DNA of 64,000 bases. Source: Erythrobacter sp. HKB08 (GTDB lineage Bacteria; Pseudomonadota; Alphaproteobacteria; Sphingomonadales; Sphingomonadaceae). Both the position numbers and the translations under genes were made by a program. Below, piece after piece: positions 10,322 through 34,895 of this stretch (its first letter is position 1; the number at the start of each line of letters is the position of its first letter). The notes under the pieces are model-generated. The model saw only the letters and a list, made by a program, of their open reading frames with translations, made no database searches and was not told the DNA's origin. The stretch is taken from positions 2,463,501 through 2,527,500 of the forward strand of contig NZ_CP035310.1 of NCBI RefSeq assembly GCF_004114695.1, given 5' to 3'.

Positions 10322-11461
10322 TCAGGATCGCCTTCCGGTCAGGGTCAGCAGCGGAGTGATCAAGGCAAGCATCGGCAGGCCGCGCTTCGGGAGGGAAACC
10401 TGTCCGATATCCGTAGCGCGCGCGAATTCGCGAAGCAGAGCCGAGCGGCGGTAGCCCTTCCGGCTCACGAGCATCAGGCTGTGCCGCACGCGGGCGGTGA
10501 TGTAGCCGAGCGCATCGGGCTTTACCCCGCCCTCAGGAATGTCGGCAGCGATCAACTCTCTTGCGAGGTCCGCAAGCCGGATCGCTTGCTTTCGCCGTGC
10601 CAATGCTTCGAACGCCGGTGGCATCTCGGTGTCGAGCAATTCTCGCGACAGCCTGAAGGCGGCTCCGGCGAGGTCGTCCAGTCCGTGACGCTCGATCGCC
10701 GAGGCGCATGCGCTCACCTGATCCTGCGAGAGACCGGAAATGATCCGGTCGATATCGACCAGCCACTTGAGCCGCTGCCAACCATGCTTCGCACCGTGAA
10801 CCAGCAGGTACGCGAAGTGCTCGGGCAAATGCAGGATTGGCGGAGACGAGGACGCATCGACATGCTCGCGCCAGTTCTCGTCCAGTGCCGGGAGGAAATT
10901 CGGGTTCTGGACCGTGCGCCAATGCAGGTCGAGCTGGGCGCCGTCGGCCCTGCGGATGTAGGAGCACGCCGAATGCAACCGCATGAAATGCGCGCGCCGT
11001 GTACCCTCGAGCGGGAAGCGCGGGTGGTAGCGCTCGAACCCCATGTCCTGCAGTACGAGGTCCGCCGCGTCGAAATCCGCGCGGTCGATCAGTATGTCGA
11101 GATCGATCATCTCGCGCAGCGATGGCCGCTCGTAGTGACGCTGGGCGACAATCACGCCCTTGAGCGTCACCCACCTGATTTCGCGGACTTCGAAGCGCCG
11201 GGCCAAATCTTGGAGGATGCTCCTGGTAAGGAGAAACCGCGCCGAATTGTTCATTTCCTGCTGCTGCAGGCGCTCGAGCAACGCGTCCGGCAGGATGCCG
11301 CTTGCTGCTGCGCCGTGCCCGACAAGCGCGCCGACCCGGTGACGGTTCACAAGTGCTTCGAACCGGTCCCAATCGATCCCGCCGCGCGCGATATCCTGAG
11401 GGGAACGAGCCGGATTGCGCGCGAGGAATGCGAGGAGGAGATCGAACTCTACCTCGCTCAT
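10322..11461 (-). CDS. Nucleotidyltransferase-fold protein of the lasso-associated type (NTP_transf_5-like)
   Basis: A 379-residue protein resembling the uncharacterised nucleotidyltransferase family found beside lasso and PqqD-type RiPP genes. The motif region is VTLKGVIVAQRHY followed by REMIDLDILID: Lys101-Gly102 with Asp120/Asp122 fits the K-G and D-x-D pattern of this fold. The start at 11461 (MSEVEFDLLLAF) is chosen because the frame upstream of it runs into the divergent promoter region. It is transcribed away from the sulfotransferase gene at 11598 and probably shares the 136-base intergenic region with it. From the pseudomycoidin system, as I recall it, such proteins modify a phosphorylated C-terminus of a lasso peptide. 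That role here is inference. Confidence 0.75.
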   Translation of the reverse strand: MSEVEFDLLLAFLARNPARSPQDIARGGIDWDRFEALVNRHRVGALVGHGAAASGILPDALLERLQQQEMNNSARFLLTRSILQDLARRFEVREIRWVTLKGVIVAQRHYERPSLREMIDLDILIDRADFDAADLVLQDMGFERYHPRFPLEGTRRAHFMRLHSACSYIRRADGAQLDLHWRTVQNPNFLPALDENWREHVDASSSPPILHLPEHFAYLLVHGAKHGWQRLKWLVDIDRIISGLSQDQVSACASAIERHGLDDLAGAAFRLSRELLDTEMPPAFEALARRKQAIRLADLARELIAADIPEGGVKPDALGYITARVRHSLMLVSRKGYRRSALLREFARATDIGQVSLPKRGLPMLALITPLLTLTGRRS

Positions 11462-11597
11462 GGTCGCGCCGCCTGATCGATTCTTCCCCATCTCCAAGGG
11501 CCTGCTTGTGGGACGCCGGGCAATCTGGCAAGCCCCGACGCACGCAACGGGGTCGGGCTCGGCGTGCTGCCGCCCAAGGGGATGAAATCCAGCGAGA

Positions 11598-12416
11598 ATG
11601 ACTAGCGGTATCGCGCAAATCGAGCGGGTCGCGGCGAGCGTGAAGACGCACCTGTTCCTGCTCTGCCCGAACAATAGCGGCTCGACCTATCTGTCGCGCG
11701 CGATTGCGCAGTCGCGCCATGTTTGGTCGCTCGAAAAGGAGGGGCAGCACGTCTTCGGGTTTGCCGGCCCTCATACGCTGGATTCGAAATGGCCGCTGAT
11801 CTGGGCTTCGAGTGATGAAGCACTCGCAGTCTTTGCCGACAGTTCCGCTTTCGACTGGGAACGATCGCGCAAGGCGTGGTACTTCCGGGCGACCGCGAAA
11901 ACGGACGATGCATCGGTCTTCCACACCAAGGCCCCGCCGTTTCTCCTGCATGCGCGCGATCTGAGCGAGACTTTCGAAAATGCGCGCTTTGTCCTGATGG
12001 TGCGCGACCCTTACGCGGCTCTCGAAGGCATCTTGCGGCGAAAGCAGCGGCACAAGACCATCAGTCGCAATCTGGACTTGGCAGAAGCGGGTGCGCGCCA
12101 CCTGCTCAAATGCCTCGAAGTCCAGCGCGCGAATATCGACCTGCTGGGCGAGGCGGCTATCGCCTTCACCTACGAGGAGTTGTGTGCAGGCCCGGAAGAG
12201 ATGGCACGACGCATCGAAGCACTCGTGCCGGCGCTCGACGATCTCGACCTCAGCCAGCGGCTCAGCATTAAGGGCACCTATGACGAACCGCTCCGCAACA
12301 TGAACGAAGAGCAGATCGCGCGTCTTTCGCCCGAAGAGATATCCGCCGCGACCCGCGTCTTCGAGAAGGGACGCGAGCATCTCGAATTCTTCGGTTACGC
12401 ACTGCGCACGGCTTGA
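11598..12416 (+). CDS. Sulfotransferase family protein (first of two)
   Basis: A 272-residue protein with the two PAPS-binding signatures of sulfotransferases. The 5'-phosphosulfate loop is NNSGSTYLSRAI (about 25-36) and the 3'-phosphate segment is RFVLMVRDPYAALEG (about 130-144). It lacks a signal peptide. It opens the plus-strand part of the RiPP cluster, and the next gene starts 43 bases later behind GGAGGG. Members of this family transfer sulfate from PAPS to hydroxyl groups; the acceptor here is unknown, and a tailored peptide is an inference from location. It differs strongly from the second sulfotransferase at 13969, so this is not a recent duplication. Confidence 0.8.
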   Translation: MTSGIAQIERVAASVKTHLFLLCPNNSGSTYLSRAIAQSRHVWSLEKEGQHVFGFAGPHTLDSKWPLIWASSDEALAVFADSSAFDWERSRKAWYFRATAKTDDASVFHTKAPPFLLHARDLSETFENARFVLMVRDPYAALEGILRRKQRHKTISRNLDLAEAGARHLLKCLEVQRANIDLLGEAAIAFTYEELCAGPEEMARRIEALVPALDDLDLSQRLSIKGTYDEPLRNMNEEQIARLSPEEISAATRVFEKGREHLEFFGYALRTA

Positions 12417-12459
12417 CCGTTTCGCGGCGGCTGATACCTCACCGGACAAGGGAGGGAAC

Positions 12460-13059
12460 GTGGTACCCAAAGTCGAAAAACCGCACACGGTCAGACATCT
12501 CGGACCGGTCGCCTACGAGCCGCTGCGCCGTGCAGTAGCGCGCATTTCCGAAGCGACCTGGCAGGCCGAGGACGCGCACAAGGAAAACGACTTCGAAGTC
12601 TTCCACCATACGCGCCACATCATCTTCCGCTTCATCGAGAACAACCGCGACCCGGAAAGCTTCTATGCGACGCCCGCATGGGACGCGTGGAAGGGCCTCT
12701 TGGAACCGGTCATGCGCGAAGCCATCGCGCCCTACGGATTTGCCAGCCCCCGATTTCCAAAGGCTATGCTCGCGCGGCTACAGGCCGGCCACCGGATCGA
12801 CCCGCATTACGACGGGGCGGGGTCGAACCTTCGCGCGCACAAGATCCACGTGCCACTGGTCACCAATCCGGAAGCCGTATTCCTCGTGCGCGACGAGCGT
12901 GTCCATCTCGAAGCCGGCAACGCCTACGAGGTGAACAATATCGTCAGCCACGGCGGCGAGAATCTCGGCGAGGAAGATCGCATCCACCTGATCTTCGAGG
13001 TGTATAATGCCGATTCGGGCGGGCGCACGACAGACCGGGGCGTGCATGCCGAAGTATAG
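12460..13059 (+). CDS. Aspartyl/asparaginyl beta-hydroxylase-like 2OG-Fe(II) oxygenase
   Basis: A 199-residue protein of the AspH type (PF05118-like). The iron site is seen as His116 and Asp118 in DPHYDG and His164 in NIVSHGGEN, with Arg174 in EEDRIHLIFE placed to bind 2-oxoglutarate. The strand KIHVPLVTNPEAVFLV is typical of the family. It has an HxD pair, whereas classical AspH uses only two histidines. The start is GTG at 12460, supported by GGAGGG seven bases before. Located inside the RiPP cluster; hydroxylation of an Asp or Asn in the core peptide (Asp9 or Asn13) is a reasonable but untested guess. Confidence 0.8.
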   Translation: MVPKVEKPHTVRHLGPVAYEPLRRAVARISEATWQAEDAHKENDFEVFHHTRHIIFRFIENNRDPESFYATPAWDAWKGLLEPVMREAIAPYGFASPRFPKAMLARLQAGHRIDPHYDGAGSNLRAHKIHVPLVTNPEAVFLVRDERVHLEAGNAYEVNNIVSHGGENLGEEDRIHLIFEVYNADSGGRTTDRGVHAEV

Positions 13060-13972
13060 GATTTACGGCTTTACCCTGTCTTCCGACATTCCCCTTCCCG
13101 CCATCCCGGAATTCACCGGCGAGGCGGAAGCGGACGCATTCATTCGTGCGGCTTCGATCGAGGAGACCCCCGGGTTCGAGACGAGCTTCCGCAATTGGGA
13201 GGCGGAACCCGGCCGCTTCTTCGCCACCTTCTTCGAAACCGGTCGTTTCCGCGTCTCCAATGGCGACACGATCGAATACGACCGCTTTGCCGAGGCCGAC
13301 GACAGCCAGGTCGTCTCCATCCTGCTCGGCACCTGCATGGCAGCGCTCCTCATGCAGCGCGGGATACTCCCGATCCATTCATGCTCGGTCCTGACCGACA
13401 AGGGCGCGGTTCTGGTGATGGGCATGTCTGGTGCGGGCAAGTCGACCATGCTCGGCGGCCTGCTGTCGCTCGGACTGCCGATGGTGGCGGACGATGTCAC
13501 CGGCCTGATACTGTCCGACGCCGGGCTGCCGCAGGCCCTGCCCGCCTTTCCGGCGACGCGGCTATGGGCGGATTCGCTCAAGCGGCTCGGCCACGAAAGC
13601 GACGGCTTGCCGCAGGTGCGCAGCGACCTTGCGAAATACTACCGGCCGGTCGAGGAATTCCACGACCGGGTCACGCCCATCCGCGCGATTGTCTATCTGC
13701 AGGCGACCAATGCCGAGGAGGAAGAATTCTCCCGGATCGACCCGGCGCTCGGCGTCGAATGCCTGTCGCGCTTCATCCATCGCAAGAATTTCATCGATGG
13801 TATGAAGCTGCGCCCATGGGCCTTCCGCACGGTGGCCAATACAGTTGGGCAAGTGCCGATGTTCCACCTGAAGAGATCCGCGCATTGGATCGATCCGGGC
13901 GAACTCGCACGCCGCATGATCGACGGGATCGAACGGGCAGAAGCCGAAAGCGCCGCCCAGGAACCGGCATGA
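13046..13972 (+). CDS. HPr kinase-like (HprK/PadeK-type) peptide kinase
   Basis: A 308-residue protein resembling HprK-like kinases of lasso peptide clusters. Walker A is GMSGAGKST (126-134), preceded by the family-typical IHSCSVLTDKGAVLVMG with His111, and followed by Asp149-Asp150 in MVADDVTGL. It lacks the N-terminal domain of true HprK and there is no PTS gene nearby. In paeninodin-type systems a homologous kinase phosphorylates the C-terminal Ser of the precursor, and the precursor here also ends in Ser. The ATG at 13046 overlaps the oxygenase gene by 14 bases; the 3' end overlaps the next start as ATGA, indicating coupled translation. Confidence 0.82.
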   Translation: MPKYRIYGFTLSSDIPLPAIPEFTGEAEADAFIRAASIEETPGFETSFRNWEAEPGRFFATFFETGRFRVSNGDTIEYDRFAEADDSQVVSILLGTCMAALLMQRGILPIHSCSVLTDKGAVLVMGMSGAGKSTMLGGLLSLGLPMVADDVTGLILSDAGLPQALPAFPATRLWADSLKRLGHESDGLPQVRSDLAKYYRPVEEFHDRVTPIRAIVYLQATNAEEEEFSRIDPALGVECLSRFIHRKNFIDGMKLRPWAFRTVANTVGQVPMFHLKRSAHWIDPGELARRMIDGIERAEAESAAQEPA

Positions 13973-14826
13973 CCGCGCAGCTCGGCCCGGGACGCTCGAT
14001 CGTCTGGCTCGCCTCCTATCCGAAATCGGGCAGCACCTGGGTCCGCGCCCTGCTGACCGCCTGCCTGTTTCCCGACGAGCCGCTAGATTTGAGCGCGCTG
14101 GTCGGCGGGCCGATCGTGTTTGACCGATCGCTGCTCGACGATCATGCCGCGATCGATTCTGCCGACCTGACATTGGACGCGTTGCTACCCTACCAGTCGG
14201 CATTCCACCGCGCCTTCGCCGCCGAGGGTGATGGCCCAGTTCTCGTGAAAACGCACAGCGCCTTCCGCCGGGCGAGCGACGGGACTGCCCTCTTCCCCAA
14301 GCAGGCGAGCGCGGGTGCCATCCTCATCGTGCGGAACCCGCTCGATATCGTGGCATCCTACGCGCATCACGAAGGCAAGACCGCGGACGCCATTATCGAG
14401 CGCATGGCGGACGAAGAAGCCCGGCAGGACGAATGGCCGGACAAGACAAGCAAGGCCGTCCCGCAATTGCTCGGCAGCTGGTCGACCAATGTCACCTCTT
14501 GGCTCGACCAGGACGAGATACCGCTCCTGTTGGTGCGCTACGAAGACCTGCTTTCCGACCCTGCGGGGCAACTCGATCGCATTACCTCGTTCTGCGGTCT
14601 ATCGATCGATCTTGAGAAACAGGGCGCGGCCACTGATGCAGCCTCTTTCGAACGGCTGAAAAAGGCCGAAGACGATGCCGGCTTTTCGGAGAAGCCGCGT
14701 GCTGGAAAGGCGTTCTTTCGTAAGGGTCGAACCGGAGGCAGCACGCGCGAACTGAACGAGGCGCAAAACCGGCGCATTCTGGAGGATCATGGAGCAGCCA
14801 TGCGCCGGCTGGGATATTCGGGTTGA
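13969..14826 (+). CDS. Sulfotransferase (second of two, classical type)
   Basis: A 285-residue protein close to classical cytosolic sulfotransferases. The 5'-PSB motif is YPKSGSTW (17-24), the 3'-PB segment is AGAILIVRNPLDIVASYAHH (115-134), and the C-terminal RKGRTGGSTRELNE resembles the RKGxxGDW PAPS loop. VKTHSAFRRA contains the usual catalytic-side His (His96). The start overlaps the kinase stop by four bases. It is better conserved in motif structure than the first sulfotransferase. It lies within the RiPP operon, so a hydroxyl of the peptide (Tyr12, Ser4, Thr6) or of an attached sugar is the inferred acceptor. Confidence 0.85.
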   Translation: MTAQLGPGRSIVWLASYPKSGSTWVRALLTACLFPDEPLDLSALVGGPIVFDRSLLDDHAAIDSADLTLDALLPYQSAFHRAFAAEGDGPVLVKTHSAFRRASDGTALFPKQASAGAILIVRNPLDIVASYAHHEGKTADAIIERMADEEARQDEWPDKTSKAVPQLLGSWSTNVTSWLDQDEIPLLLVRYEDLLSDPAGQLDRITSFCGLSIDLEKQGAATDAASFERLKKAEDDAGFSEKPRAGKAFFRKGRTGGSTRELNEAQNRRILEDHGAAMRRLGYSG

Positions 14827-14878
14827 AGCGCCCCCCGACCACTTGCGCAAGACAATCAACGATGGAAGAAACCCGCAC

Positions 14879-15166
14879 ATGAACGACAAGACCATCAAGG
14901 CCGATACGATCGCCACCCGAAACGAGAATGTCCTGTTCAGCGAAGTAGCCGACGGCATCTCGCTGATGGATATCGAGAGCGGCAAATATTTCCATTTCGA
15001 ATCGACCGGCGCGCGCATCTGGCTCAAGCTCGATCCGGGCCGCAGAATCTCGGATCTTTGCGAAAGCCTTCAAGAGGAATTCGAGGTCGAGCCGGAGCAA
15101 TGTCGCGCAGATACAATCGAATTTGTGTCCGAATTATATGGTCTTGGCCTCGTTGAGGTCGCTTGA
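14879..15166 (+). CDS. PqqD-like RiPP leader-binding protein (lasso B1-type)
   Basis: A 95-residue PqqD-fold protein. Typical segments are EVADGISLMDIESGKYFHF, the STGARIWLKLD helix and the hydrophobic C-terminal helix FVSELYGLGLVEVA. PqqD-like domains (RRE) bind the leader of RiPP precursors and present it to the modifying enzymes; in lasso systems this is the B1 protein. It lies 52 bases after the second sulfotransferase and 93 bases before the precursor gene. It stands alone and is not fused to a protease, which matches proteobacterial lasso clusters where B1 and B2 are separate. Confidence 0.88.
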   Translation: MNDKTIKADTIATRNENVLFSEVADGISLMDIESGKYFHFESTGARIWLKLDPGRRISDLCESLQEEFEVEPEQCRADTIEFVSELYGLGLVEVA

Positions 15167-15196
15167 GTCCGATTGCGTTCCAGAATTTTGCCGTGG

Positions 15197-15224
15197 TTGC
15201 ACAACCGGTTAATTCGGGTATAGG
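15197..15224 (+). promoter_or_regulatory. Candidate sigma70 promoter of the RiPP precursor
   Basis: A TTGCAC box and a TATAGG box with a 16-base spacer end 35 bases before the precursor ATG. The surrounding 90 bases are clearly more AT-rich than the genes on either side. The precursor gene could therefore be transcribed separately from the upstream enzymes. The assignment is by eye only. Confidence 0.4.
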
Positions 15225-15259
15225 CATTGTTCACAAGTTAGTTTCTTTGGGGAGAAATT

Positions 15260-15391
15260 ATGAAAACCGACAAGCAGAAAGGCCGCGCGCCCTGGCAAAA
15301 GCCGGCTGTCCGTTCGATCACGCCGGTCAAGCGCACCGCCGCTGGCGCAGTAAGCCGGACGGTTGAAGACGCCTTCTACAACCCTTCCTGA
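15260..15391 (+). CDS. Lasso-type RiPP precursor peptide (43 aa)
   Basis: A 43-residue peptide with the strong ribosome binding site GGGGAG five bases before its ATG. The N-terminal part is basic (MKTDKQKGRAPWQKP), followed by AVRSITPVKRTAA and then the proposed core GAVSRTVEDAFYNPS. With Gly as residue 1, the leader has Trp at -17, Pro at -14 and Val at -12, the positions of the Y-x-x-P-x-L leader motif bound by lasso B1 proteins. Glu8 or Asp9 could close the ring, leaving a 6-7 residue tail ending Tyr-Asn-Pro-Ser. Ala rather than the usual Thr is at -2 (Thr is at -3), so cleavage one residue earlier is possible. It sits between the PqqD-like gene and the cyclase and has its own terminator. 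Confidence 0.8.
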   Translation: MKTDKQKGRAPWQKPAVRSITPVKRTAAGAVSRTVEDAFYNPS

Positions 15392-15440
15392 TCCGCCGTT
15401 TCGGACCGCGTCCGTCTACGGGCGCTGAGGAAATTCGAAG

Positions 15441-15474
15441 AAGGCCCAAGGCGTTTTTGCCGTGGGCCTTTTTT
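15441..15474 (+). terminator. Intrinsic terminator/attenuator between precursor and cyclase
   Basis: Outer arms AAGGCCCA and TGGGCCTT, with an inner GGC/GCC pair around a GTTTTT loop and one A-G mismatch, are followed directly by TTTTC. It lies 50 bases after the precursor stop and 15 bases before the cyclase ATG. Partial read-through would give much precursor and little enzyme, a common RiPP arrangement. Confidence 0.8.
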
Positions 15475-15488
15475 CTTGCCGCTTGCCC

Positions 15489-17138
15489 ATGAAATCGATC
15501 ACTTCACTCATGCCTTTGCAAGGCAGGTTCGCGCGCAACAGCGACCCTTCAGGGCAACTGGAAGTCCTAGCCGACTCCTGCCTTCGGGACCGGGCTGCTC
15601 TGGCGCAGGCGCTCGGTATACCGCCTGACGAGAGCGATGCCGGACTGATCCTCGGAGCCTACAGGCGGTGGGGCGCGGACCTATGTCGTCACCTCCAGGG
15701 TGAGTTTGCCTTCGCGATCCTCGATCGCGGTCAGGGAAGCGTGCTTCTGGGCCGCGACCACATGGGTTTTCGCACGCTCTTCTACACGCAGGACGGCGAA
15801 AGCCTGCTGATCGCGAACGAGCCAGGCAGTCTCGTCGCTTCAAGCAATGCGCCTCAGTTCGACGAGGCCTATGCCGTGATGCAACTACTCGGCGGCCGCC
15901 GGGTCGAAGCGCACAGGACATTCTGGAAAGGTATCGAGCGCCTTCCCGCCGGCCATCATCTGCTCATGCGAGACGGCAATTGGACGCGCGAGCAGTGGTG
16001 GAAACCATTCGAGCAGGTCGCTCGAAGAGACGGCCAGGAAGCGGAGCTGGTCGAACAGGGGCGGGAATTGCTCCAGAGAGCTATCGCGGACAGCATACCG
16101 GCGCAGGGTCGGGTCGGCATTCACGTGACCGGGGGTCTCGATAGCTCAGCAATCCTCGTCATCGGCGATGCGCTCGTCAGGCAAAGCGGGCGGCAGGTTA
16201 CGGGCTATGCATGGCAGGGGCCTTCGGAAACGGAAGAAGGCCCGCGCATCGCTGCAGCTGCGGCCCTGGTCGAGATGGATCTGCGCATTCCGGATCTTTC
16301 CGACCGGGAGTTCGCGGATCTCTGGCGCAGCGACTGGTCTGTCGCGCCATCGCAATGGAACCTGATGCATGAGCTGCCCGTCCAGCGGGATGCCGGCCAA
16401 AACGGCATCTCGACCATCCTGTCGGGCTGGGGCGGCGACGAGGCGATCAGCTTCAATGGCCGCGGAATCCATGCCGAATATCTCGCACAGCTCAAGCTCG
16501 CCGATCTCGCCGCCCTCTCCCCGCATAGTGGCATCAAGGGGCTCGCCAGTTCGCTGCGCGCGGCCTTGAGCGAGTTGCGCGAAGGCCGGCGGAACGAGCT
16601 TGGGGTAGCCCCCGGCACCTTCCTCACCAGCGACGCATTGGCGCAGGTGGATATCCAGCCTGGTCCTGTCATCGACTATAGCAGCTGCCGCACGGCCATG
16701 CGCTCCATCCTCGACACCGGGGCGACCAGCGCCAGGATCGAGGACTGGGCAATCTCGGGCCACGAGCACGGTGTTCGTTACCGCTACCCGATGCTCGACC
16801 GGCGGGTGATGGAATTCGCCTACAGCCTGCCGGGCGAGCTCTTCCGCCAAGGCCCTACGCGGCGCTGGTTTTTTCGCGAAATGATGAAGGGTATCCTGCC
16901 CGAAAACATCCGCTGCGAAACCTCCAAACGGGAGAGACTGCGCACCACGGCCCTCGAGCGGAGGCTGCAGCAATTCTACCGCGGCATAGCGGAGGAGGTC
17001 GAGGACCGGCGCAGCAGCCTGGCGCGCGCGCATTTCTTCGACATGGACAGGCTGATCGCCGCGCTAAGGAACCCGCCGGGGATAGGCGAACCGCAGTTCG
17101 GGCACTTGCGCCGGGCAATCCAGTTCCTGGATATCTGA
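15489..17138 (+). CDS. Asparagine synthetase-like lasso cyclase homologue
   Basis: A 549-residue AsnB-type protein. The N-terminal region (about 1-180) is a degenerate glutaminase domain without an N-terminal catalytic Cys. The C-terminal synthetase domain has the ATP pyrophosphatase loop TGGLDSS (214-220) and LSGWGGDEA (311-319). Loss of the glutaminase Cys with an intact PP-loop is what lasso macrolactam synthetases show: the side-chain carboxylate is adenylated and attacked by the N-terminal amine of the core. The ATG at 15489 is preferred; a GTG at 15462 lies inside the terminator stem, and an ATG at 15510 is also possible. The following gene starts four bases after the stop. Confidence 0.85.
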   Translation: MKSITSLMPLQGRFARNSDPSGQLEVLADSCLRDRAALAQALGIPPDESDAGLILGAYRRWGADLCRHLQGEFAFAILDRGQGSVLLGRDHMGFRTLFYTQDGESLLIANEPGSLVASSNAPQFDEAYAVMQLLGGRRVEAHRTFWKGIERLPAGHHLLMRDGNWTREQWWKPFEQVARRDGQEAELVEQGRELLQRAIADSIPAQGRVGIHVTGGLDSSAILVIGDALVRQSGRQVTGYAWQGPSETEEGPRIAAAAALVEMDLRIPDLSDREFADLWRSDWSVAPSQWNLMHELPVQRDAGQNGISTILSGWGGDEAISFNGRGIHAEYLAQLKLADLAALSPHSGIKGLASSLRAALSELREGRRNELGVAPGTFLTSDALAQVDIQPGPVIDYSSCRTAMRSILDTGATSARIEDWAISGHEHGVRYRYPMLDRRVMEFAYSLPGELFRQGPTRRWFFREMMKGILPENIRCETSKRERLRTTALERRLQQFYRGIAEEVEDRRSSLARAHFFDMDRLIAALRNPPGIGEPQFGHLRRAIQFLDI

Positions 17139-17141
17139 GCG

Positions 17142-18020
17142 ATGACCGGCAGGAGCGCCCCTATCGATCTCTTCACCGTCACCTCCCGGGACTTCGTGCC
17201 CGGAACGCAGGTCATGCTGGAGAGCTTCCTCCAGCAAAACGACTGGTTCGACGGCCGGATCGTCCTCTTGCATGACGACCTAGACGAGACGACCCAGCAC
17301 GACTTCGGCAGGCTTTTCGCAGGTCTCGAATGTCGCACGCCCGCACCTGACCTGTGCGAGCGCGTCGACAGGCTGGTCGCTCAATTCCCAAAGCTGTCAG
17401 GTCGAAAGCGGCGCTTCTATTCGCTCGACCTGTTCGGCGGCGACACCGGCGCAGCTGCGCTTTTCATCGACAGCGATATGATGTTTCGTGGGTCGGTCGA
17501 AAGGGCGCTCGTGTCAGGCGCCCGGATCGCAGCCTGCGGGGACCGGGCGCTTCTGTCCGGCAACACGCGGGACAGCGAAAGCCTCGCGGAGGTCCCTGTG
17601 TCTCGGGAGGTCTCGGAATTCCGAAGCTTCAATGCCGGCTTCATGCTGGTCGCTCCCGAGCTTCGCACGAGCAAGGCCCGCGAAGCCGTCCTCGGGCATC
17701 TCGATCCGGTACGCTGGGCGCGGATTAGCAGCGACCATACCGATCAGGCGGTCCTCAATTCGTGCTTCGGCCAAGAAGTCCATATCCTCGACCCGACATA
17801 CAATTTGATGCTCGGTCACGTGGAGCGAATCGCCGTAGAGCATCGCATTCCCGCACGCGAGGCGATCGGCCTGCATTTCAACGGCCCGGCCAAGCCCTGG
17901 CTATTGGGCGAACAAGTCGAGGCCATGTCACGCAACGCCGACTACGCCTTCGGGCTTGCACAGTGGCACGGCGCCTATCGCCGCTTCCTTGCTCGCAGGG
18001 AAGCTGGACCGACGGGCTAA
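17142..18020 (+). CDS. GT8-like glycosyltransferase
   Basis: A 292-residue protein with features of family 8 glycosyltransferases. The metal-binding DxD is seen in ALFIDSDMMFRG (Asp110, Asp112), followed by FNAGFMLVAPEL, a DQAVLN segment and the C-terminal HFNGPAKPW (245-253) that matches the H-x2-G-x2-KPW signature. No signal peptide or membrane anchor. It begins three bases after the cyclase stop and so belongs to the RiPP transcript; attachment of a sugar to the peptide or its C-terminal phosphate is inferred. Its last four bases overlap the convergent permease-fusion gene. Confidence 0.75.
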   Translation: MTGRSAPIDLFTVTSRDFVPGTQVMLESFLQQNDWFDGRIVLLHDDLDETTQHDFGRLFAGLECRTPAPDLCERVDRLVAQFPKLSGRKRRFYSLDLFGGDTGAAALFIDSDMMFRGSVERALVSGARIAACGDRALLSGNTRDSESLAEVPVSREVSEFRSFNAGFMLVAPELRTSKAREAVLGHLDPVRWARISSDHTDQAVLNSCFGQEVHILDPTYNLMLGHVERIAVEHRIPAREAIGLHFNGPAKPWLLGEQVEAMSRNADYAFGLAQWHGAYRRFLARREAGPTG

Positions 18021-21000
18021 CGGCTTCGGCGAACGATGATTTCGCTGTTCGGGGCGAACTCGCCGTCGATGCTGGTCTTGGCCCCGTCACGCCAGGTTAC
18101 CTCGATCTTCGCGACGCGGGACGCCTTACCGAGGCCGAAGTGTGCCACGGGATCGATCCCGGTCGCGAACCCGCCGCTCTGCCGGATATCGCGTGCACGG
18201 GAAATGCCGTCGTCGGTTGTCACGACGATGCGCGCTCCGATCGCGTCCCGGTTGCCGATATCGTCCTGCAGGCGAACCCACAGCGCGCCGCCAGCCGGTG
18301 CGTCGTTGCGATGGATAATCGGCTGCGTCACCGCCGAGGTACGGATCACGTCCACATCGCCATCGCGATCGTAATCGATCAACGCATAAGTGGTCGAAGG
18401 CACCGTGTCGGACAGGCCGAACCGGTCCTGTGCCTGTACGAAGCCCGCTCCACCCCTGTTGCGATAGTATGTGTTGGGCGTCGTATTGCGATGATAGGCC
18501 ATCCCCGTCGCAACGAAAATGTCCTGCCAACCGTCCTGGTCAAGATCGACGAAGCGCGAATTCCAGCTCCAGCCCGGCTTCGCCACATCGAAACGAGTAG
18601 TCTCGTCGAGGAAGCCAGAGCCAGCTGTGCGCTTGAAGAAGATATTCCGCGCGTTGATGCCGCCGACGTAATCCTGCTCCTCCATGACCTTCTCGGCATT
18701 CGGGAATCGGGGTCTTGCCGCGACCTCACACATTTCCTTCCACTCTGCGCCGTAGGGCACGAGACGATAGCATTCGGACGTTTCCCCGAGGAAACTTGCC
18801 CGAAAACTCAGGCTGCGCGCCGCACACACCCAGCGGTAGAGCGAGTCCTGGATTTCGTCGCAGCGAGAATAGAGCGAGTGGGCTAGGTTGGCGCTGAGAC
18901 TCCTGTTTCTAAGACTGAGGAAGCATTCCCGGCTGTCTCCGGCCTGCATTTCCGCCATTCCGCAATAGCTCATTTCCGGCTCGACCGATTCCACGCGCCA
19001 ACGCGACCATGCGATCTGTGCGACGTAAAATTCATCGATCAGGTCATTGTCGATGTCACCCATGTCGAGGCTCATCGAAGTGCGCGTCAGGTAGGGAACG
19101 ATCCCGTCGGACTTGCGCGCCAGACGGAACTTGCGCTCGCCCTGGTTGAGATAAATCTTGTCTGCGGTGGAAACGTCGTCGCCGATAATCAAGTCGGGTC
19201 GACCATCGCCATCGATATCGGTGATCAACGACGCAAGGCTTTCGCCCGGCACACCGTCGAGCATTTGCGGCGTGAAGCTGCCGCCCTCGTTCCAGAAGAT
19301 GCGGTCCTGCGATGAAAGCAGATAGGGGTTGCCGTTGTTTGCCGTGGTCCCGATGGTCCAGTTCGCAGCGAGTATATCGATATCGCCGTCGCCATCGAGG
19401 TCGGCGAAGCCGGGCGCTCCCACGAGCCCGGCATCGCCATTCGGCAGGTCGGTACGGTCGTTCCAGTCGAAGCGGCCATCGCGGTTCCACAGTATGTGGG
19501 TCCCCCGCATGTAGGACGACACGAAAAGGTCGGGTCGCCGGTCACCATTGAGGTCGCTCAGCATGATTGTCCCGATGAACTGTTCTGCCAACGGGCCGAG
19601 CATGATCGGCACCTCCTGGAAACGTCCACCGATGTTGCGGAAATAGGCGAGCCCCCCTGTCGCGGGTGTACGCGACATGAGAATGTCTACCCAGCCGTCG
19701 CCGTCCGTATCTCCCGATGCGAGGCCCCAGAAGAAGGTATATGGCTCGAGCACTTCGTATCCCGCAGACTGCGGACGAAGGTCGAGTCCCACTTCCGAAC
19801 CGAGCAGCCGGCTGAAGCCGATGTCGGCCCCGGCGCTCGGTGTATTCACCGGTGCTGCCTCGACCACGGAGACGGTGCCTGGTCCTTCGTTCGCGACCGT
19901 TGCTGCAACGGGGCGGTAGGTTATCTCGGGGATTCCGGCCTCATCGAGCGGTGCCAGGCTAGGCTGGCCCGGCGCTCGCTCCATCTGTGTGGTCGGCATC
20001 GAGCTGAGGAAGGCGATATTCGCGTCATGCCGCTCCTCGATGATGGATTTGTCGATCCAGTTCGCCGCAACGCCCAGCACTACCGCCAGCGCCGCGAGCG
20101 ACCCCATCATCGCAGCGGATATTCGCCAGGATATGGCTCGCCCGACAATCATAAACGAATAGACGCTGTAGCAGCCGAGCGCGAACAGCAGCGGCATGAC
20201 ATAGCGCACCGGCCAACCCGCGTTGATGAGAATGACTGCGAGAATGACGTCAAAGGCAATCGGTACCGGCAGGAAGATCGCCACCACGGCAATGAGCGTC
20301 ATTGCGACCAGAATCATGGGGACAGACGTCGGAACACCGATAACCCGGCGGAATTCCTGGAAATCGAAGAAAGTGATGAGGATCGCGCCGAGCGCGCCTG
20401 CCAGCAGCATCAGCGGCACGGTGACCGCGATGATGAATACGAGGTTCCGGCCGAAGGTCCGGGCCAGCCAGACGAAGGCCTTGGGCCAGCTGTCGACGTC
20501 GGACGCGGGCACCGGCAGGGGACGCAGCGCCTCGAGCTTGCGCGCGATCCAGCCGCGGCGATCGTCGACCTGGCCCTGCATCTTCGCGATCGCATCGTCT
20601 TCCAGACCCTTGGGATGGAAAATCCGCGTGAGGATCGGCACGCCGATGAGTACGAAAGCCAGCGCGCCGACCAGCTTGAGCGTCGCGAGATGCAATGGAA
20701 GCAGCGCGAAGGACATGCTCACCACGATCACGTTGAGCGTCGGCGAGGCGATCAGCGCGCTCAGCGTCGTCTCGAGCCGCATTCCGGCACTGTGAAGGCC
20801 GCGCGCAATCGGCGCAGCGCAGTTGACGCACACGCCCAGCGGAGTTCCGATGGCCGCGCCCAGCGCCGCATTGGCGAAACGGTTATTGAATCCGCGGCGC
20901 TCTATCAGCCCGAGCAACGTCAACGCGCAGGCAGCGAAGAGCACGCCGAAGGTCATGCCCTTCCAGTTGGTGTAGATCCAGTTGACCGTGTTTACGGTCA

Positions 21001-21235
21001 GTTCCCAGGCGAAGCTGCTGTTCGGCACCCATTCGAGTATTTCGTCGAAAGCGATACCGCTCATATTGGTATCGCCGCCCATCGCAGCCTTTTCGTTCAG
21101 CGCCGGATAGCGCGACTGGGTCCAGAAATAGGTCGCGATCGCAGCCGTCAGCAGGACCGATAGAACGATCCGCCGATCACGCAGCAGGTTTACGAAAACG
21201 TTGTCCGGCCGGTCGGCCGCAGCGGCAGTTGCCAT
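18017..21235 (-). CDS. Permease fused to FG-GAP/VCBS repeats and an ASPIC/UnbV domain
   Basis: A 1072-residue protein of unusual architecture. About residues 25-400 form a multi-pass permease resembling the ArsP/DUF318 family, with a Cys pair in PLGVCVNCAAPIARGL. About 480-950 hold FG-GAP-like repeats with calcium-type loops such as DTDGDGWVDIL, DLDGDGDIDIL, DIDGDGRPDLI and DYDRDGDVDVI, expected to form a beta-propeller outside the cytoplasm. The last 90 residues look like an ASPIC/UnbV domain (DAIGARIVVTTDDG, VAHFGLGKASRV). Cysteine-rich loops occur around SYCGMAEMQAGDSREC. The whole is one uninterrupted frame. Substrate unknown; it converges on the RiPP operon and need not be related to it. 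Confidence 0.75.
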   Translation of the reverse strand: MATAAAADRPDNVFVNLLRDRRIVLSVLLTAAIATYFWTQSRYPALNEKAAMGGDTNMSGIAFDEILEWVPNSSFAWELTVNTVNWIYTNWKGMTFGVLFAACALTLLGLIERRGFNNRFANAALGAAIGTPLGVCVNCAAPIARGLHSAGMRLETTLSALIASPTLNVIVVSMSFALLPLHLATLKLVGALAFVLIGVPILTRIFHPKGLEDDAIAKMQGQVDDRRGWIARKLEALRPLPVPASDVDSWPKAFVWLARTFGRNLVFIIAVTVPLMLLAGALGAILITFFDFQEFRRVIGVPTSVPMILVAMTLIAVVAIFLPVPIAFDVILAVILINAGWPVRYVMPLLFALGCYSVYSFMIVGRAISWRISAAMMGSLAALAVVLGVAANWIDKSIIEERHDANIAFLSSMPTTQMERAPGQPSLAPLDEAGIPEITYRPVAATVANEGPGTVSVVEAAPVNTPSAGADIGFSRLLGSEVGLDLRPQSAGYEVLEPYTFFWGLASGDTDGDGWVDILMSRTPATGGLAYFRNIGGRFQEVPIMLGPLAEQFIGTIMLSDLNGDRRPDLFVSSYMRGTHILWNRDGRFDWNDRTDLPNGDAGLVGAPGFADLDGDGDIDILAANWTIGTTANNGNPYLLSSQDRIFWNEGGSFTPQMLDGVPGESLASLITDIDGDGRPDLIIGDDVSTADKIYLNQGERKFRLARKSDGIVPYLTRTSMSLDMGDIDNDLIDEFYVAQIAWSRWRVESVEPEMSYCGMAEMQAGDSRECFLSLRNRSLSANLAHSLYSRCDEIQDSLYRWVCAARSLSFRASFLGETSECYRLVPYGAEWKEMCEVAARPRFPNAEKVMEEQDYVGGINARNIFFKRTAGSGFLDETTRFDVAKPGWSWNSRFVDLDQDGWQDIFVATGMAYHRNTTPNTYYRNRGGAGFVQAQDRFGLSDTVPSTTYALIDYDRDGDVDVIRTSAVTQPIIHRNDAPAGGALWVRLQDDIGNRDAIGARIVVTTDDGISRARDIRQSGGFATGIDPVAHFGLGKASRVAKIEVTWRDGAKTSIDGEFAPNSEIIVRRSR

Positions 21236-34451: not shown

Positions 34452-34895
34452 ATGCCCAAGCTGAAAACCATGGCCTCCATGCCGCGCGCCGAGTGGGCGG
34501 GCTATGCGGAGGCGATGGCTTGCCTGCTGTGGGCGCGGCTGCTGGTGCTCCTCGTGCCGCTCAAGCATTGGCGCAAACACATCGCCGACGGGATCGAGGC
34601 GAAAGGGACTTTGGAGCCGTTGGACGAGAGCGAGCGCGAGGCGGTGAAGCTGGTCGCCCGCTCGATATCACGGGCAGTTCGCAACACTCCGGTCGAACTC
34701 ATCTGCCTGCCGCAGGCGCTTGCAGCGCGCTGGATGCTCGCCCGGCGCGGGGTTGCGACGCAGCTTTACCTCGGCACACGGATGGCGGCGGAAGAGGACC
34801 GCGAATTCCACGCCTGGCTCAAGGCCGGGCGGACATGGGTGACCGGCCACTGCGACGAGGAAAATTTCGTCACTTTCGAGCGTCGCACTGCCTGA
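34452..34895 (+). CDS. Lasso peptide B2-type leader protease homologue (isolated)
   Basis: A 147-residue protein of the transglutaminase-core-3 family, that is, lasso peptide biosynthesis B2 proteins. The N-terminal helical region [22 protein letters not shown] precedes the peptidase core with Cys85 in [18 protein letters not shown] and His120 in EFHAWLKAG, followed by [13 protein letters not shown]. Length and motif spacing match B2. B2 cuts the leader from a lasso precursor. It is not next to the precursor or cyclase (15-17 kb) but behind acs, ten bases after its stop and without a clear ribosome site of its own, suggesting coupled translation. It may serve the RiPP cluster in trans or be a domesticated relic. 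Confidence 0.8.

Follow-up and report, generated by a model that had tools for sequence, protein, structure and literature searches.

Gene content of the locus

The window analysed here is a stretch of 64,000 nucleotides (nt) from the genome of Erythrobacter sp. HKB08 (contig NZ_CP035310.1, positions 2,463,501 to 2,527,500), an organism whose genus is Parerythrobacter and whose genome is a single contig of 2.75 Mb; Parerythrobacter lutipelagi and P. lacustris were its same-genus relatives in the family search. Nine closely packed genes at positions 10322-18020 of the window probably direct the synthesis of a lasso peptide that is decorated by up to six enzymes, two of them sulfate-adding. One end of this island is a gene on the reverse strand for a nucleotidyltransferase-fold protein of the NTP_transf_5 family (10322..11461; PF14907, E = 2e-46). 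The remaining genes lie on the forward strand and encode a sulfotransferase of the Sulfotransfer_3 type, ST1 (11598..12416; PF13469, E = 1e-12), with motifs of the 3'-phosphoadenosine 5'-phosphosulfate type recognized by eye; an AspH-family Fe(II)/2-oxoglutarate oxygenase (12460..13059; PF05118, Asp_Arg_Hydrox, E = 1e-11); an HprK-like peptide kinase (13046..13972), matched by weak HprK models only; a second sulfotransferase, ST2, of the Sulfotransfer_1 type (13969..14826; PF00685, E = 3e-23); a PqqD-like B1 protein, the recognition element of ribosomally synthesized and post-translationally modified peptide pathways (14879..15166; PF05402, E = 4e-18); a 43-residue lasso precursor (15260..15391); a lasso-type macrolactam cyclase, C, with a shortened N-terminus and without the glutaminase cysteine (15489..17138; Asn_synthase, E = 6e-23; GATase_7, E = 3e-15); and a GT8-family glycosyltransferase (17142..18020; PF01501, Glyco_transf_8, E = 2e-15).

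An earlier note on this DNA had described the same nine genes, in this order and separated by short gaps or overlaps. All nine are present, with Pfam models above threshold for every protein other than the kinase and the precursor, and the coordinates bear out the dense packing: the kinase and ST2 genes overlap by 4 bases, those for AspH and the kinase also overlap, and 3 bases separate the cyclase and GT8 genes. The top NCBIfam model for B1 was lasso_PqqD_Bac (E = 3e-15, under its cut-off).

Precursor peptide and cyclase

In both congeners a counterpart of the 43-residue frame lies between pqqD and the cyclase gene. Over its last 36 codons the three pairwise dN/dS values were 0.14, 0.08 and 0.13 (dS above 1, near saturation), and by this codon comparison the precursor is under purifying selection and more than a chance frame. 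The proposal that relatives keep a precursor-like frame held in 19 of the 20 distinct AspH-type loci (AspH score above 200 bits, window included), which come from Parerythrobacter, Pontixanthobacter, Sphingorhabdus, Sphingomonas, Sphingopyxis, Citromicrobium and gammaproteobacterial metagenome-assembled genomes (MAGs). Besides Parerythrobacter, five named genera have AspH-type loci whose precursors carry a WxxP leader, and all 20 precursor rows parsed for their core contain this motif. The window precursor has WQKP in its leader and Thr at position -2, which makes AGAVSRTVEDAFYNPS its likely core, with a ring from Ala1 to Glu9, within the span of positions 7-9 expected of the ring acid in a lasso precursor; most relatives have an acid at position 8-10 when counted from Thr(-2) (three rows, L071, L073 and L091, were read by eye). 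The earlier note had assumed a core of 15 residues, for which the core start gives Gly1 and Glu8; the core may instead have 16 residues.

Precursor organization varies among the relatives. The cores at L120 (11882-12199) and L146 (11742-11993) have acids near position 15-17 and perhaps use a different ring or cut site. Two Pseudomonadales MAGs (L085, 815-7555, and L086) contain multiple distinct precursors, four of them in L085, together with two kinases, AspH and ST2 around a single cyclase.

Cyclase relatives were detected in 12 of 249 family genomes at E 1e-30, none of them plasmid-borne at this threshold; seven (window included) were close, 30-51% identical to the window protein and surrounded by tailoring genes. 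All seven aligned orthologues match NF033535 under its cut-off, and the lasso model outscores the asparagine synthase model in Sphingorhabdus soli (247.7 vs 161.7 bits) and P. rizhaonensis (322.9 vs 177.5 bits). In a tree of 52 rows, 17 AspH-type cyclases and L084 formed one clade (support 100/99), nested in a weakly supported group of cyclases from loci bearing B1 and B2 (the leader peptidase), and six MCG-type asparagine synthetases, two of them from the window genome, formed a separate clade (100/100). This placement agrees with the earlier expectation that the cyclase would not group with true asparagine synthetases; the same tree is imperfect, in that three unclassified AsnB-like rows group with the lasso-type cyclases of G087 and G168 and a number of long branches carry flags. 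The window genome encodes two true asparagine synthetases in addition to the cyclase, and the N-terminal MCG glutaminase cysteine is present in both of these and absent from the cyclase.

Candidate tailoring enzymes and target residues

The six candidate tailoring genes are kept as a set across several Sphingomonadales genera; among the seven family genomes with a close cyclase, the nucleotidyltransferase and ST1 were each found in six and GT8 in all seven. The kinase falls under every family cut-off (top model HprK_rel_B, 5e-5), but the H, GxxGxGKS and DD elements seen by eye uphold its assignment as HprK-like: G131, K132 and S133 are invariant and H111 and D149 nearly so among 19 aligned sequences, and the window protein carries the HprK-like motif (H, Walker K/S, DD) under a definition drawn in part from the available text of PMC10368454. 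Residues H116, D118, H164 and R174 of AspH are invariant in 19 of 19 aligned sequences, and K94, H96, R122 and S130 of ST2 in 17 of 17. The ST2 gene adjoins the kinase gene in 30 of the 31 distinct loci that have both (counted by eye; exception L074), a pairing that spans four phyla: Alpha- and Gammaproteobacteria, Chloroflexi, Acidobacteria and Opitutaceae.

Candidate target residues were counted in 75 precursors, 54 of them in rows curated by eye, with more than one precursor for L085, L093, L102 and L112. The counts take in loci without a kinase hit (among them L097, L114, L115, L121, L127, L135, L137, L144 and L148) as well as L086 and L111; loci without a clear precursor, such as L076, L087, L088, L089, L090, L092, L098, L107, L113 and L140, are left out. 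A tyrosine within the last seven residues was present in all 23 precursors from AspH loci and in 9 of the 52 others, an association whose Fisher p-values, like those for the C-terminal serine, are inflated by shared descent; crude thinning to one precursor per name group left 7/7 vs 3/24. All 23 AspH-locus precursors combine a C-terminal serine with a nearby tyrosine, and across 18 AspH rows serine was last in 18 and tyrosine stood at -4 in 12. Asp and Asn are both absent from the last 12 residues of two of these 18 rows, and from the entire core of L073 (by eye), which disfavors an AspH enzyme restricted to Asp and Asn.

Island boundaries and the FG-GAP fusion

The gene run sits between dsbD and ubiH in Parerythrobacter, Pontixanthobacter CEM42 and Pontixanthobacter luteolus. 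In the window it is bounded on the ubiH side by a gene on the reverse strand for a fusion of an ArsP_1-like permease, an FG-GAP beta-propeller and a UnbV/ASPIC domain (18017..21235, by Pfam), the other end of the island, which the earlier gene list had left out. A search for ubiH in 59 relatives gave matches in 32, and 30 loci were read with 1.5-kb flanks: the FG-GAP gene adjoins ubiH in three (all Parerythrobacter), dsbD adjoins it directly in 11 and neither does so in 16. Among the 13 next-nearest ubiH loci, 11 have dsbD and ubiH as neighbors, that is, an empty slot. Because of this adjacency in relatives, the inserted segment spans the nucleotidyltransferase gene through the FG-GAP gene; judged from gene order, the approximately 11-kb segment between dsbD and ubiH is an inserted island that includes the FG-GAP fusion.

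The FG-GAP gene was carried by 14 of 249 family genomes and by three of 398 phylum-sample genomes, G314 being the sole carrier among these from outside the family. Of the 15 carriers, 11 have a lasso-type cyclase no more than 10 kb from the gene and four do not: G023 and G089, read approximately 20-30 kb to each side of the gene, G037, bounded by its 19.6-kb contig, and G314, which had no cyclase match at E 1e-20. Found through its cyclase, the Verrucomicrobiia MAG L130 has the FG-GAP gene approximately 4 kb away, and in several Sphingopyxis loci the gene was not in the flanks read. Despite the four carriers in which the two are apart, the reading as a chance neighbor was rejected because of the empty slot and the co-distribution. 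An AlphaFold2 model of the fusion (pLDDT 78.6, pTM 0.75) comprises a helical membrane part, a beta-propeller with a cysteine-rich helical insert and a UnbV end; its best match in the PDB was CRTAC1 (E = 3.5e-16), and a lectin was also among the matches.

The islands of Pontixanthobacter CEM42, Pontixanthobacter luteolus and Sphingorhabdus soli include an ATP-binding cassette (ABC) exporter, a common but not universal part of lasso clusters, and none was found within the island of the window. These three carry both an exporter and the FG-GAP gene, leaving the idea that the fusion substitutes for the exporter unsupported. The closest homologue in the window genome, 32% identical to the Pontixanthobacter cluster exporter, is encoded elsewhere in that genome; it directly follows an unclassified AsnB-like open reading frame (L183, 11578-15289, outside the window), and the pair is possibly a second peptide or amide system. 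In G037, the dsbD-ubiH slot (L054) holds only B2, the nucleotidyltransferase and an ABC exporter, a partial island without a cyclase, and the FG-GAP gene is on another contig.

Probable leader peptidase and the intergenic stem-loop

The only PF13471 match in the window genome, a B2-type leader peptidase (Transglut_core3) also missing from the earlier gene list, lies at 34452..34895 on the forward strand (E = 4e-17; start picked by eye), approximately 17 kb from the island; a genome without B2 is thus rejected, and the linkage of B2 to the cluster is weak. Its neighbors, identified by eye, are acs on the 5' side and an acyl-CoA dehydrogenase gene on the 3' side, and in P. lutipelagi and P. lacustris B2 is likewise directly 3' of acs. 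The distance from B2 to the cyclase is 17-18 kb in P. lutipelagi, approximately 8 kb in both P. lacustris and Sphingorhabdus soli, close to 7 kb in the two Pontixanthobacter genomes CEM42 and Pontixanthobacter luteolus, and approximately 1 kb in P. rizhaonensis. The Parerythrobacter B2 proteins share a single clade (99/96), without a resolved internal order, with those of four Pontixanthobacter-type loci and with the orphan B2 homologues of G058, G197, G078 and G062. This B2 is the likely, though unproven, leader peptidase of the cluster. In relatives where no clear lasso cyclase was seen, orphan B2-type genes (L055, L056, L057 and L060) likewise lie close to these housekeeping genes.

Between the precursor and the cyclase, a terminator-like stem-loop with a T-run was identified by folding (15437..15474, forward strand); the fold energy of the 97-nt spacer had a z-score of -2.8 against mononucleotide shuffles. 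Stem-loops also lie 3' of the precursor in P. lutipelagi, P. lacustris and Pontixanthobacter CEM42, and the corresponding spacer of Sphingorhabdus soli folds no better than its shuffles. A promoter and terminator scan returned about as many sites as in shuffles, and the stem-loop at 15437-15474 was not among them.

Relation to known systems

The island most resembles the paeninodin- and pseudomycoidin-type clusters of Bacillota, with which it shares the split B1/B2, the cyclase, the HprK-like kinase, the C-terminal serine and the WxxP leader, as well as a nucleotidyltransferase known from several of them. As described in the parts of the sources available, these clusters differ from the proteobacterial island in that the latter adds AspH, two sulfotransferases, GT8 and the permease/FG-GAP protein and has no ABC exporter. 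In the available text of PMC13381572, WxxP is nearly invariant among paeninodin-like precursors, paeninodins are confined to Bacillota and what paeninodin-type lasso peptides do biologically is described as unknown. Within the Sphingomonadales, the SyanK lasso cluster of Sphingobium yanoikuyae also has an HprK-like kinase, which (poly)phosphorylates the C-terminal serine; the portions of its description available do not mention AspH, a sulfotransferase or GT8. The Bsf cluster of Bradymonas sediminis combines a kinase, a nucleotidyltransferase and B1/B2/C with a bordering FG-GAP repeat protein that its authors presumed uninvolved; according to the accessible sections, it differs in that its kinase targets Ser3, its precursor ends in Asp and its seven open reading frames include an ABC transporter and no sulfotransferase or AspH (PMC10368454).

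Several of the individual modifications have precedents. Phosphorylation of a C-terminal serine and addition of hexose to that phosphate are documented for lasso peptides in the available parts of PMC8498205 and PMC9266682, and Asp hydroxylation in excerpts of reviews. The canucin A pathway likewise has a Fe(II)/2-oxoglutarate oxygenase that hydroxylates the lasso precursor with the help of B1; by the accounts available, this enzyme, CanE, acts on a C-terminal Asp, whereas the C-terminus here is Ser. A putative sulfotransferase gene stands beside lasso genes in some Firmicutes clusters (Zhu 2016, via PMC8498205); the part of the text available describes a single such gene with no product stated, whereas the island has two that are conserved across genera. 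Among the sections available of a 2026 review (PMC13352647), lasso peptides with multiple unique modifications are described and no sulfated example is named; the word start 'sulfo' had no matches and 'sulfat' one, within a reference. No report of a sulfated lasso peptide was found in the accessible portions of the open-access literature, a scope outside which most subscription papers and all preprints lie.

The gene run itself is already in print, as a list of halotolerance genes. Clusters 1738-1748 in Table 2 of PMC10040529 (Pontixanthobacter) match it: B2, nucleotidyltransferase, ABC, sulfotransferase, AspH, hypothetical, sulfotransferase, PqqD, AsnB-like and glycosyltransferase. In the parts available, that study treats the run as osmotolerance genes, and its main text had no matches to 'biosynthetic gene'.

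Proposed product and alternative explanations

The sequence contains a B1-precursor-cyclase core whose precursor is conserved, together with six tailoring genes that look intact, an FG-GAP fusion inside the insertion and one B2 elsewhere, and we consider it quite likely that the product of the island is a lasso peptide of the phosphorylated type, made with an HprK-like kinase and a nucleotidyltransferase and subject to an enlarged set of tailoring steps. In the pathway envisaged, B1 would bind the WxxP leader and present the precursor, the HprK-like enzyme would phosphorylate the C-terminal serine and the nucleotidyltransferase-fold enzyme would put a hexose or nucleotide onto the serine phosphate. 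The AspH-like oxygenase may hydroxylate a tail residue, the conserved tyrosine or one next to it being the most likely target, and ST1, ST2 and GT8 could sulfate and glycosylate the tail or an attached sugar, with the tyrosine as the best candidate site for tail decoration; sulfation of the product is thus predicted from gene content. The unlinked B2 would cleave after Thr-Ala, the cyclase would join Ala1 to Glu9, and the permease/FG-GAP protein might act as a dedicated membrane partner in export, binding or immunity. The combination of tailoring genes suggests a lasso peptide type not yet described, as the earlier note had claimed for six such genes around one precursor, with the qualification that phosphorylation, hexose on the phosphate, Asp hydroxylation and a sulfotransferase gene, the last in some Firmicutes clusters, all have precedent. 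A bolder version, which we hold with considerable doubt, is that this would be the first sulfated lasso peptide, its AspH repurposed from Asp/Asn to the conserved tail tyrosine and its two sulfotransferases and GT8 loading the tail beside a phospho-hexosylated serine, with the permease/FG-GAP propeller as a new transport or receptor class.

A number of observations weigh against this interpretation. The window cyclase scored higher with the asparagine synthase model than with the lasso model (161.7 vs 154.9 bits, both under cut-off); Pontixanthobacter luteolus (L051/L076), the exception among AspH-type loci, has all the tailoring genes and the cyclase, but no precursor frame was found near them; and the AspH-type cores of L078, L120 and L146 have no acid at positions 7-10. 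Precursors ending in serine made up 48 of 49 at strong-kinase loci, 5 of 12 at weak-kinase loci and 13 of 14 at loci with no kinase hit, so that in these counts the C-terminal serine appears consistent with the kinase precedent yet a poor discriminator of kinase loci that leaves the site unproven; at a second cluster of L102 (11589-12913, Halomonas), a second cyclase and kinase accompany a precursor-like frame, counted with the strong-kinase loci, that ends in Thr. Because the AspH loci form one clade in the tree, the association of AspH with tyrosine reflects conservation within a diverged clade and not repeated gain, and the conserved tyrosine could be a steric plug. B2 may serve another job, being outside the island and found without a clear lasso cyclase in relatives: its homologues adjoin acs in G058 and precede the acyl-CoA dehydrogenase gene in G197, where no clear lasso cyclase was seen, while G078 and G062 have them in the vicinity of this gene run. 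The best cyclase-profile matches in these four genomes reach 95-133 bits, compared with 197 and 232 for the lasso-type cyclases of G016 and G087, and are tentatively read as asparagine-synthetase-like.

The sulfotransferases could also act on a surface sugar. Sulfotransferase, GT8 and FG-GAP families commonly act on glycans, and the lectin among the FG-GAP model matches would fit a scheme in which these proteins serve a cell-surface sugar and only the kinase and nucleotidyltransferase act on the peptide; the pairing of ST2 with the kinase gene in 30/31 loci of four phyla, and the lack of polysaccharide genes inside the island other than GT8, render this rather unlikely. A peptide that never forms a lasso, being either decorated like the recently described linear polyphosphorylated peptides or just macrocyclised, would be consistent with the three cores lacking an acid and with the kinase, nucleotidyltransferase and recognition element that the accessible text of PMC13381572 gives as common to the linear family. 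That family has no macrolactam cyclase, whereas the cyclase here is present and conserved, the window core has Glu9 and most relatives have their acid at 8-10, all of which make an unthreaded or linear phosphopeptide unlikely.

Decay of the cluster, with the exporter and its own B2 lost and no product made in Parerythrobacter any more, would account for an island without the ABC exporter seen in Pontixanthobacter CEM42, Pontixanthobacter luteolus and Sphingorhabdus soli, for the unlinked B2 and for the partial island without a cyclase in G037; we judge it quite unlikely, as the frames are open in three congeners, the catalytic residues are kept and the precursor appears to be under purifying selection. 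The reading of the cyclase as a real asparagine synthetase, and of the locus as an osmolyte or halotolerance trait, draws on the available text of PMC10040529, where the gene run appears in a list of clusters that co-occur with halotolerance and the AsnB-like gene is treated under osmolytes. It is extremely improbable and was rejected on account of the absent glutaminase cysteine, the separate tree position and the two true asparagine synthetases in the genome.

Implications

The lasso peptide interpretation offers an alternative reading for genes that a published study treats as halotolerance factors. The retention through deep divergence of six tailoring genes and, in several genera, of the permease/propeller protein suggests that selection acts on a specific product of high charge. 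Its chemistry would be open to testing in cultured strains, including lasso sulfation and the action of an AspH-family enzyme on residues beyond Asp and Asn, and the biology of paeninodin-type peptides would likewise become testable in such strains.

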